Shown here: in pieces, positions 47,663-51,967 of the stretch
Numbering within the stretch: position 1 is the stretch's first letter
How the letters are laid out: every line of letters starts with the position of its first letter
From: Micromonospora sp. NBC_01796
GTDB lineage: Bacteria > Actinomycetota > Actinomycetes > Mycobacteriales > Micromonosporaceae
Assembly: GCF_035917455.1 (NCBI RefSeq)
Contig: NZ_CP109078.1
Location: forward strand, 3,286,001 to 3,350,000
Direction: 5' to 3'
Length of the DNA: 64,000 nt
Translations under genes and position numbers: made by a program
The notes under the pieces: generated by a model
Databases searched by the model: none
What the model was told of the DNA's origin: nothing
What the model saw: only the letters and a program-made list of their open reading frames with translations

Positions 47663-47938
47663 CGCCCCCCTGCGCCCCCCACCATCACCGACCACCCCAC
47701 CCACCCCACGTACCGCACCCCACCCACCCCACCCCACCCCACCCCCACCCCACCCCCGCACGAAGCAGCGCGGCGATCTTGCAGTTGTGGCTGTTCACAA
47801 ATCCCATCAAGGCCACGATTCGGGCGCCACAACTGCAAGATCGTCCACGTCGCGGGTGGGGACGGGGTGGTGGGGGCTTCGGGGTGGGTGGGTGGGTGAG
47901 GGGGTGGGGGGTTGCTTGGTCGGCACGGGGGGGCTTGT
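47663..47938. repeat. hairpin element 1: C-rich flank, 18-bp inverted repeat, G-rich flank
   Basis: The perfect 18-bp arms are 47774-47791 and 47826-47843, with a 34-nt loop. Left of the arms, 47663-47757 is made of CCCCAC repeats; right of them, 47855-47938 is made of GGGGT/GGGT repeats, so the outer parts are also roughly complementary and each can form a G-quadruplex on one strand. No protein is credible here. The design is the same as that of element 2 after clpC, though the arm sequence differs. Confidence 0.75.
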
Positions 47939-50877: not shown

Positions 50878-50907
50878 GCACCCAGCACCACAGCACCACC
50901 CACCAGC

Positions 50908-50940
50908 GCGGCCCCGGCAGGCAAAAGCCTCCGGGGCCGC
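50908..50940 (+). terminator. intrinsic terminator of clpC
   Basis: GCGGCCCCGG (50908-50917) pairs with CCGGGGCCGC (50931-50940), extended by AGGC/GCCT around an AAAA loop; 14 bp with one bulge, about 30 bp after the stop codon. Confidence 0.8.
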
Positions 50941-50966
50941 TCTGCACCCTCCCCACCCCTCCCTCG

Positions 50967-51106
50967 CCCCACCCCTCGCCCCGTCGATCTAGGGCAAAAG
51001 CGTGTGATTAGAGATCAACAAGCAACCTTTTGCCCTAGATCGACGATGAGAGGGGTGGGGGAAGAGGGCTGGGAGGGGGAGTTATGGAGGGGGAGGTGGG
51101 GAGGGC
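50967..51106. repeat. hairpin element 2: C-rich flank, 19-bp inverted repeat, G-rich flank
   Basis: Perfect 19-bp arms (50982-51000 and 51027-51045) enclose a 26-nt loop. An outer 11-bp perfect inverted repeat (50967-50977 with 51050-51060) continues the stem after four unpaired bases on each side, making a stem of about 34 positions with 30 pairs. G-rich sequence goes on to about 51106 and could form G-quadruplexes. The right arm supplies the stop codon of mutY. Confidence 0.8.
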
Positions 51107-51967
51107 GTAGGTGGCGTGCGGGAGGGCGGCCACCAGGCCGTCTTCGACCAGGGTGCTCAGGGCGCGGACGCGCTGGGCGTCGTCGGCCCAGACGGGGTCG
51201 AGTTGGGCGATCGGGACGGGGGCGGTCGCGTCCCGCAGGACAGCCAGGAGCAGGCCGCGTACCTGGCGGTCGGTGCCGGCGTAGCCCTGTGGGCGACGGG
51301 ACGGGCCGGTCGGCGGCAGGGCGCCCGAGGCCAGCCAGGCGCAGCGGTCCGCGAGCGGGCAGTCCACGCACCGGGGCGCGCGGGCGGTGCAGACCAACGC
51401 CCCCAGCTCCATGAACGCGGCGCTGGCCCGAGCCGCCCTGGCCGGCTCCACCGGAAGCAGTTCCGCGGTGGCGACCAGGTCGGACGGGCGGGTTGCCGGA
51501 CCGGCGTCCGGAGCGCCGGCCACCGCCCGAGCCACCAGCCGCCGTACGTTCGTGTCCACCACCGGGTGCCGCTGCCCGTACGCGAACGCGAGCACCGCCC
51601 GTGCGGTGTAGTCGCCGACACCGGGCAGGGCGAGCAGGGCGGTCAGATCGGTCGGGACCGCGCCACCGTGCCGCTCCACCAGCGCCACCGCGCAGTCCCG
51701 CAGCCGCAGCGCCCGACGGGGGTAGCCGAGCCGCCCCCACATCCTGATCGCCTCGCCGGGTGGATCCGCGGCGAGTTCGGCCGGCCCCGGCCAGCGGGCC
51801 AGCCACGCCCGCCAGGCGGGCAGGACGCGTACCACCGGGGTCTGCTGGAGCATGACCTCGCTGACCAGCACCGCCCAGGCGGTCACGCCGGGCTCCCGCC
51901 ACGGCAGGTCGCGGGCGTTCTCGTCGTACCACCGGATGGCCACGGTGGCGAGCGTTGGTTCGGACAT
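51035..51967 (-). CDS. mutY: A/G-specific adenine glycosylase
   Basis: Removes adenine mispaired with 8-oxoguanine or guanine. It has 310 residues from ATG 51967 (a second ATG six codons upstream is possible). Motifs: SEVMLQQTPVVRV (catalytic Glu), LPGVGDYTARAVLAFAYG (helix-hairpin-helix), VDTNVRRLVAR (catalytic Asp) and the [4Fe-4S] ligands C...C..C.....C in CTARAPRCVDCPLADRC. The last 20 residues, TSPSITPPPSPLPPPLSSSI, are encoded by the G-rich side of hairpin element 2, and the stop codon lies in its right arm. A full C-terminal NUDIX-like domain is not visible. Confidence 0.93.
   Translation of the reverse strand: MSEPTLATVAIRWYDENARDLPWREPGVTAWAVLVSEVMLQQTPVVRVLPAWRAWLARWPGPAELAADPPGEAIRMWGRLGYPRRALRLRDCAVALVERHGGAVPTDLTALLALPGVGDYTARAVLAFAYGQRHPVVDTNVRRLVARAVAGAPDAGPATRPSDLVATAELLPVEPARAARASAAFMELGALVCTARAPRCVDCPLADRCAWLASGALPPTGPSRRPQGYAGTDRQVRGLLLAVLRDATAPVPIAQLDPVWADDAQRVRALSTLVEDGLVAALPHATYALPTSPSITPPPSPLPPPLSSSI

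Follow-up and report, generated by a model that had tools for sequence, protein, structure and literature searches.

Diversity-generating retroelements tie base-specific hypermutation, at A, to a genetic element, and we know of no bacterial precedent for a centre of strand-asymmetric hypermutation. Among bacterial repeats, REP sequences are described, in the excerpted account used here (PMC3733652), as lying mostly between convergent and unidirectional genes and as forming GTAG and CGTC superfamilies with RAYT transposases. Excerpts of two further papers report near-equal C>T and C>G changes in yeast from APOBEC3G deamination when Ung1 is present (PMC3799438) and, for bidirectional 5'->3' resection, mutated C on the left and mutated G on the right of the top strand, the reverse order being absent or very rare (PMC6786661). 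Here we describe family E, a new REP-like repeat family whose hairpins may be small centres of local mutation.

The window, a 64-kb stretch of DNA (positions 3286001-3350000), comes from a genome that forms a single 8.56-Mb contig (G000). It holds a hairpin, element 2, between clpC, a name backed by the Pfam domains Clp_N, AAA_2 and ClpB_D2-small, and mutY, for whose product Pfam supports an HhH-GPD glycosylase. A first-pass annotation of the sequence had described here a 19-bp perfect stem, continued by 11 bp after four unpaired positions and lying between C-rich and G-rich tracts, and this description was borne out. The left arm (CGTCGATCTAGGGCAAAAG, 50982-51000, plus strand) is the perfect complement of the right arm (CTTTTGCCCTAGATCGACG, 51027-51045, plus strand) across a loop of 26 nt; extended outward, the arms reach 53 nt with 77% complementarity (50948-51000 and 51027-51079), consistent with the 11 additional bp. 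By chance, one would expect about 1e-5 perfect inverted repeats of 19 bp with a loop shorter than 60 nt per 64 kb, a value calculated as 64000 x 60 / 4^19 and uncorrected for base composition. The hairpin contains the 56-bp core of family E, GATC...GATC (50986-51041, plus strand), with its asymmetric centre in the + orientation; by the consensus of 78 copies, an off-centre GATC (51013-51016, plus strand) sits within the conserved asymmetric AGATCAAC centre. The left tract, C-rich and G-poor (50945-50981, plus strand), varies in length among species, and the right tract is G-rich and C-poor (51046-51110, plus strand). GC skew in the 100 bp beside the core is -0.51 on the left and +0.67 on the right.

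Other parts of the first-pass reading needed revision. It had seen a first element of the same design on the far side of clpC. Element 1 (47772-47845, plus strand) is a hairpin with GATCTTGCAGTTGTGG arms; both elements are dispersed and alike in general design, flank skew included, but they belong to different sequence families, A for element 1 and E for element 2. The proposed distances of about 680 bp before and 90 bp after clpC become about 500 bp between element 1 and the called clpC start, and about 105 bp between the clpC stop and element 2. That the pair brackets clpC looks like coincidence, element 1 being missing from the orthologous gap in both sister species, G001 and G002 (L013). 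The proposed test for a structural RNA found no support in Rfam, a search of the window at the gathering threshold giving 0 matches. As for a genome-wide search of the arm, only two matches to the 14-mer GATCTAGGGCAAAA exist in the 8.56-Mb genome, and both are arms of element 2, but the shorter 11-mer core GATCTAGGGCA has 14 matches on the plus and 13 on the minus strand. Element 2 therefore belongs to something larger than a single hairpin beside mutY.

The unit of family E is a 56-bp palindrome, GATCTAGGGCA-N34-TGCCCTAGATC, with a conserved off-centre AGATCAAC. Its 11-mer core matches 15/16 times (+/-) in G001 and 81/77 times in G002, and the reversed control pattern matched 0/0 times in each of the three genomes. 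Exact arm pairs all lie 45 bp apart, start to start (12 in G000, 9 in G001 and, in G002, those among the matches listed); the arm-pair search imposed no spacing, and hence provides independent support for constant spacing. Together with one copy carrying a single mismatch, the 12 exact pairs make 13 family E copies in G000. The alignment comprises 78 copies, 61 from the genus and 17 from elsewhere, the loci from G002 coming from the first 1.72 Mb of its sites among the matches listed (27 copies). These copies are 56 bp long by construction, as the extraction pattern had a fixed length and allowed up to 4 substitutions; three loci with a single arm and no 56-bp copy (L119, L130 and L133) stand outside the 78. 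Outside the genus, G004 has one arm pair only 13 bp apart. Many E copies carry an outer CGTC, CGCC or CGTT at both ends, which is not an unpaired single-end tag. The orientation of the centre is near even, 35 copies + and 39 -, and an RNA function with a fixed direction is not favoured by this split. At one site common to the three species (L120 in G000, L146 in G001, L164 in G002), the G001 centre points the opposite way from those of the other two.

Family E favours gaps between convergent genes (34 of 78), often shortly past stop codons, and by the heuristic caller used here convergent pairs make up 123 of the 677 neighbouring gene pairs in the sample. Orientation counts are approximate, since this codon log-odds caller still calls an antisense ORF over mutY; Pfam was used to check orientation at 4 neighbouring gene pairs. 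Family E is multi-copy, extragenic and biased to convergent or tandem gene ends, as is typical of REP sequences. One explanation would therefore be a REP sequence moved by a RAYT (a Y1 HUH transposase), for which the short palindromes, the many copies, their place at gene ends and their unequal number among relatives would speak, along with the similar gene setting of REPs in the excerpted source (PMC3733652). However, Y1_Tnp (PF01797) had no match in any of six E-rich genomes (G000, G001, G002, G164, G232 and G039); in six other genomes searched only G030 had it, and 5 of 14 search controls were positive, E. coli among them. Nor was a GTAG or CGTC tag on a 20-40 bp palindrome found: at 56 bp the core is longer, and its two ends are near-palindromic and carry no GTAG tag. 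We regard movement by a RAYT as highly improbable.

Family E is narrowly distributed. Among 300 genomes of the taxonomic family, high copy number is confined to G164 (22/28 arm matches), G232 (20/19), G039 (9/10) and the three species of the genus; the remaining genomes have 0-7 arm matches, both strands together, against 0-3 for the reversed control. A scan of 84,980 species genomes, which may leave out near relatives of the window, found 16 stretches with the exact E frame, all of them from three Micromonospora strains and one Micromonosporaceae MAG, and on this basis the taxonomic family is called Micromonosporaceae. Viral contigs gave 0 matches to the E frame and 0 to an A frame of one fixed length. 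None of six arm sequences was found in the PMC library, and among the papers listed on palindromic repeats of Micromonospora and actinobacteria no title or abstract opening described such elements.

A hairpin census of 864 kb (40 x 20 kb of G000 plus the window) revealed further families beside E, namely A (GATCTTGCAGTTGTGG), B (GATCATGAAGTTAGCG), C (GAGAAAGAGTGGCTATCC) and D. Family A is mostly 68-70 bp long; searched as a frame with a free 26-46-nt loop, it has 54 copies in G000, 56 in G002 and 0 in G001. The frame occurs in 13 of 91 genomes of the taxonomic family and in 8 of 44 genera (control matches 0), and a class-wide scan of 296 genomes found the A-type arm in multiple copies (16-32 matches, both strands) only in the three sampled Micromonosporaceae, with 1-3 matches in 8 other genomes. 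One genome, G064, holds 145 family A copies and two other sampled genomes of its numbered genus hold none, a strong species-level expansion. At L017 in G000 two family A copies stand in tandem, 128 bp apart, and the DNA after each (TCTAGYGGGTGCTCCTCG) is also repeated, which suggests duplication together with the flank. Family D hairpins (GGGTTGGGCCCGCCGTGCCC, with a CTTGATC loop) recur in G000 at L033 (16791-16892), L047 (1814-1887), L048 (13991-14087) and elsewhere.

At mutY, the first-pass annotation had correctly seen that the gene runs into the element. Its stop codon, a minus-strand TAG at 51035-51037 (element positions 5-7), comes from the right arm, and the minus strand of the G-rich tract encodes a Pro/Ser tail (SPSITPPPSPLPPPLSSSI, 51038-51094, minus strand). 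MutY ends in ...YALPTSPSITPPPSPLPPPLSSSI in G000 and in ...YTLPLSSPLPLPSPLPPPLSSSI in G002, both tails being Pro/Ser-rich and both stopping at the arm's TAG. The tail is lineage-specific: it is missing from G001 and from all 12 genomes examined in other genera (5 of them from genus g4, including the E-rich G164 and G232), where the tails are unrelated. In 7 others of the 78 aligned copies, by the heuristic gene caller, the arm TAG gives a neighbour its stop at the same arm position. Stop capture is thus recurrent and follows from the arm's TAG.

The further proposal of an insertion into the 3' end of mutY did not hold as far as a fresh event is concerned. Family E is present between clpC and mutY in all three species, where the copies differ in C/G tract length and inner arms, and in G001 the element is present yet MutY stops ahead of it. 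Judged by this comparison, family E at clpC-mutY is ancestral in the genus and not a recent insertion. In the roughly 1.4 kb past mutY, paired E arms were found in 0 of the 12 other-genus genomes (clpC was located there in 9 of 12), and 3 of the 12 have a single near-arm 480-650 bp beyond the mutY stop. The clpC-mutY gap of G164 (L262) contains another hairpin type, CCTGGATGTAGTGG...CCACTACATCC or similar, possibly a further family; a hairpin like it also occurs in G005 (L197, at 17556).

Elsewhere, presence of the repeat varies among the three species. At six E sites of G002 (L161, L162, L173, L174, L175 and L177), G000 and G001 are without A, B, C or E hairpins, and a motif recheck of these empty sites found only two stray short matches; the C-rich and G-rich tracts are missing there too. 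Family E is present in G001 and not in G000 at L168 and L170 (11520), and is degenerate in G000 at L167. At 12 further G001 E sites with both orthologs available, E is also present at 8 in G002 and at 0 in G000, which has A at 1. A gap can also hold a different family in each species: at L176 it contains E in G002, A in G000 (L198) and B in G001 (L199), and at L171 E, C and a C-like hairpin. G002 likewise has A at five of the G000 family A sites (L003, L004, L006, L008 and L024); L005 corresponds to B in G001, and L020 to E in G002. At L161 in G002, a degenerate family A copy (2410-2479) lies 37 bp from the E copy (2517-2572), and both are missing in G000 and G001. Compared across these orthologous gaps, E copies have come and gone, and the family found in a given gap can differ between species.

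Empty sites in relatives, and the terminal inverted repeats that family E possesses, would also be expected of a MITE of a DDE transposase that had inserted into the 3' end of mutY. However, no target-site duplication was readable in the empty-site alignments, where the flanks are too altered, the arm pairs listed include no length variants, and the element at mutY is ancestral to the genus. We give this explanation little credence.

The feature that sets these repeats apart is the composition of their flanks. On the top strand of family E, DNA to the left is C-rich and G-poor and DNA to the right G-rich and C-poor, with skews over the first 100 bp of -0.34 to -0.55 and +0.27 to +0.70, respectively, in all 4 genome groups; the skew is near baseline by about 300 bp. 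Pooled over 20 distinct family A copies (an earlier set of 26 had counted 6 twice), it is -0.45 and +0.40, with both signs right in 19. A two-sided skew beyond 0.25 was seen in the G000 sample at 6/7 A, 5/6 B, 5/8 C and 1/1 E hairpins, and at 0/10 of family D and 0/223 other hairpins. At least four families, A, B, C and E, therefore have flanks of the same kind. Random positions pass this cut at 10/4000, and midpoints of convergent gaps, which may include such elements, at 5/115. Among E copies, 8/13 pass in G000, 20/21 in G001, 24/27 in G002 and 6/13 in other contigs. In G005, which lacks family E, A-type hairpins top the list of skewed flanks, and 9/176 hairpins outside the named families pass.

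These flanks bear on a further explanation, a bidirectional terminator in which a hairpin, with C-rich, G-poor RNA resembling Rho-loading sites on each side, is selected at gene ends. The preference for convergent gaps, often close behind stop codons (34/78 vs 123/677, by heuristic calls), agrees with this, and C-rich sense RNA upstream of the hairpin would suit convergent pairs. Gene direction could be assigned for 59 of the 61 genus copies and 10 of the 17 others, the rest lying inside a called ORF or having no neighbour. Both skew signs are right in the genus at 17/17 leftward tandem pairs (<<), 9/9 rightward tandem pairs (>>), 5/5 divergent pairs (<>) and 26/28 convergent pairs (><). The same signs thus hold at 26/26 tandem sites and at the 5 divergent promoters, where the RNA would be G-rich. 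Other contigs give a smaller and less clean picture (<< 1/2, >> 1/2, that is 2/4 at tandem genes, and >< 6/6, with no <> site). Pfam domains support divergence at two sites, L175 (SAM_HAT on the minus and Bac_luciferase on the plus strand) and L163 (ThuA/lectin and AMP-binding), and tandem pairs at L174 and L161. Skew is alike for both centre orientations (35 and 39 copies). Within the genus, the flank bias is independent of gene direction.

Other evidence also argues against termination. Beside element 2, clpC has a separate GC-rich terminator-like hairpin of its own (50904-50944, plus strand), kept in all three species of the genus; other strong hairpins are without such flanks (0/223); and neither the conserved centre nor the constant arm spacing is needed for termination. 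A U tract was not found; the sequence beyond the E arms is rich in C or G. Ordinary termination fails to account for the pattern, and the bidirectional terminator is unlikely.

To see how the flanks came about, substitutions were assigned base by base at sites where both orthologs could be located: six G002 E sites, six family A sites, and 4 and 7 of 16 G001 sites queried. Changes were read on the outward strand, defined on either flank as the one whose 5'->3' direction leads away from the element. At the six G002 gains, 92 of 338 C and 12 of 345 G were changed within 200 bp (Fisher p 2.6e-19), with C>T (47) and C>G (43) in similar number. The difference declines with distance, to C 53/579 vs G 24/594 at 200-400 bp and C 97/1514 vs G 63/1473 at 400-900 bp. 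L161, whose left flank is not a clean E flank because of the degenerate A copy 37 bp to its left, contributes one change. At L175 the two sides agree (left C>T 9 and C>G 6, right C>T 8 and C>G 5, within 200 bp). In G000, which has no element at the same six sites, the counts within 200 bp were C 7/253 and G 33/366, including an excess of G>C (27) that is probably homoplasy. The C and G tracts thus do not have the look of a fixed module that came in with the element; they are the most extreme part, the core, of a strand-asymmetric substitution halo that reaches into the neighbouring genes.

The kind of change was similar over 10 sites: within 350 bp on the outward strand there were 82 C>T, 69 C>G and 9 C>A, and 34 changes of G in all. 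This is the form of a cytosine-deamination cluster, with C>T and C>G on one strand and few C>A. Of the C at third codon positions 102/398 were mutated, against 26/461 at first and 15/294 at second positions and 17/158 in non-coding DNA, as expected of mutation filtered by selection. Deaminases have sequence contexts such as TC and WRC. Rates by 5' neighbour, at 0.113 for A, 0.116 for C, 0.123 for G and 0.141 for T, revealed no strong context and neither of these two.

Other sets of sites gave weaker or less direct signals. At the six family A sites in G000, C changed at 29/215 and G at 16/320 (p 7e-4), a signal carried mainly by two sites, L011 and L044; the lineage without the element had C 13/199 and G 33/337. 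Ancestral bases at these sites were already skewed (C 215, G 320), so that they may be losses in relatives instead of gains. Four G001-only sites, where polarity is ambiguous, had C 44/163 vs G 27/254 within 200 bp (p 2.7e-5), the reverse at 200-400 bp (C 24/295 vs G 46/324, p 0.02) and level values at 400-900 bp (65/761 vs 79/875).

Seven sites at which G001 and G002 have E and G000 does not are of a different kind. Here G000 lacks about 93-155 nt and has 6-41 nt in the gap, yet its flanks have a skew of 0.186 near the site and 0.014 far from it, as in G001 (0.187 and 0.005); that of G002 is 0.342. We read the G000 skew as a probable scar, left by an element lost after a period of mutation. 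Changes found only in G002 at these sites, within 200 bp, were 49 C>T, 38 C>G and 6 C>A vs 28 at G. Differences found only in G001 run the opposite way (G>C 48, G>A 24 and T>C 21 vs C>G 15 and C>T 7). Supposing that the G001 state is the older one, these differences are read as C losses on a common stem of G000 and G002, which are taken as sisters from their somewhat higher identity and not from a tree; if it is not older, they count against the model for G001. No such scar was present at the six G002 gains, with ancestral C 338 and G 345. Taken together, gains at unskewed ancestral sites, continued change where the element is kept and a scar where it is gone suggest that the process runs while the element is present.

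Apart from the flanks, the inner arms differ between species. Their consensus is ATGGTGG..CACGTAT in G002, with G000 similar, ATCG.CG..CGCGGAT in G001, and ATCGTCG..CGACGAT over the pooled Micromonospora contigs and MAG, and at shared sites (clpC-mutY; L120/L146/L164) the inner arms follow the type of their host genome, in what looks like concerted change. Over the 78 copies pairing exceeds independence (0.73 vs 0.44 at position 12, 0.63 vs 0.30 at 15, 0.49 vs 0.30 at 18), an excess that we read as likely species-level co-change of both arms. Within G002, pairing of inner half-arms at positions 15-18 was 0.33-0.37 vs 0.37-0.38 expected if independent; paired inner arms as a selected structure were rejected on this equality.

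If a chromosome-organising or regulatory protein bound these repeats, and selection for its binding set the composition of the flanks, constant arm spacing, species-typical inner arm changes and sites common to species would be accounted for. This too seems very unlikely, because the inner half-arms of G002 pair no more than chance, because the halo runs as far as 200-300 bp into coding sequence, where it affects mostly third codon positions, and because copies come and go. Selection for a long palindrome or for G-poor flanks could conceivably lie behind the pattern.

In summary, as far as genome comparison reaches, constant spacing, dispersed copies, species-typical inner arms, presence and absence among species, different families at one gap and an outward halo of C>T and C>G are established features of these repeats, and the steps beyond the substitution pattern, namely nicking, strand displacement and damage, are what we infer from it. 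The reading we favour, and hold to be rather probable, is that family E is a REP-like non-coding hairpin acting as a centre of outward-strand C mutation by way of a nicked or opened hairpin. A broader claim might equally well prove right or wrong: that such hairpin repeats are fixed origins of local, bidirectional, strand-asymmetric cytosine hypermutation which extends 200-300 bp outward, is independent of transcription, recodes gene ends and ends with loss of the element.

In the mechanism we propose, a sequence-specific factor of the host or of a mobile element would repeatedly nick or open the hairpin, and outward synthesis or unwinding would displace one strand on each side, the bottom strand on the left and the top strand on the right. 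In these displaced strands cytosines would suffer deamination or damage, and when the resulting uracils or abasic sites are bypassed, C>T and C>G could arise in about equal number. With time, the flanks would become C-only and G-only tracts, and where a nearby stop codon lost its G (TGA becoming TCA, for instance), a gene such as mutY would run on to the arm's TAG. If copies were repaired ectopically from one another via the C/G tracts that they share, this could account for the species-typical inner sequence and also for families replacing one another at a gap. The observed order would also be compatible with error-prone filling in which template G lies on a 3' overhang. Breakage and resection with damage to the 3' overhang was considered and rejected: the top strand here is G-mutated on the left and C-mutated on the right, an order opposite to that of resection, so this simple scheme does not fit. 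Among the papers listed on strand-specific mutation involving R-loops or hairpins, or on hypermutation together with palindromes and GC skew, no title or abstract opening described such elements.

If the favoured reading is true, a bacterial repeat family creates the sequence around it through local mutation. This would account for the origin of the C-rich and G-rich tracts and of the altered gene ends, and scars would form a fossil record of where elements once stood. The polarity says much about the likely DNA intermediate: it would mark a targeted-mutagenesis system opposite in polarity to double-strand-break resection and suggest that the process starts at the hairpin by nick-and-displace. 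Phylogeny and tests of selection would then be misled by codon usage and substitution rates in the neighbourhood of such repeats. The effect could be tested in cultured soil actinomycetes.

Looking to known systems, family E resembles REP sequences and REPINs, as presented in the excerpts of PMC3733652, in being a short extragenic palindrome with many copies and several families per genome. It differs in size (56 bp, and mostly 68-70 bp for family A), long stem, asymmetric centre and lack of a GTAG tag, and in its strand-asymmetric flanks, of which those excerpts contain no account for REPs. Intrinsic terminators between convergent genes likewise place a hairpin shortly past stop codons; unlike them, family E has no U tract, is conserved in sequence and has flanks biased regardless of transcription. 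The nearest likeness in substitution pattern is to kataegis and to APOBEC clusters in yeast, where the excerpted reports (PMC6786661, PMC3799438) describe C>T and C>G on one strand per flank with a strand switch at a point. The order is opposite here, with the top strand changed at G to the left and at C to the right, and, unlike APOBEC clusters, the changes have no strong 5' context and accumulate at fixed sites, in bacteria and over evolutionary time. The base-specific hypermutation that diversity-generating retroelements direct at A differs again from what we describe, in which the target is C, both flanks of a non-coding hairpin are affected and the changes in coding DNA fall mostly at third positions.
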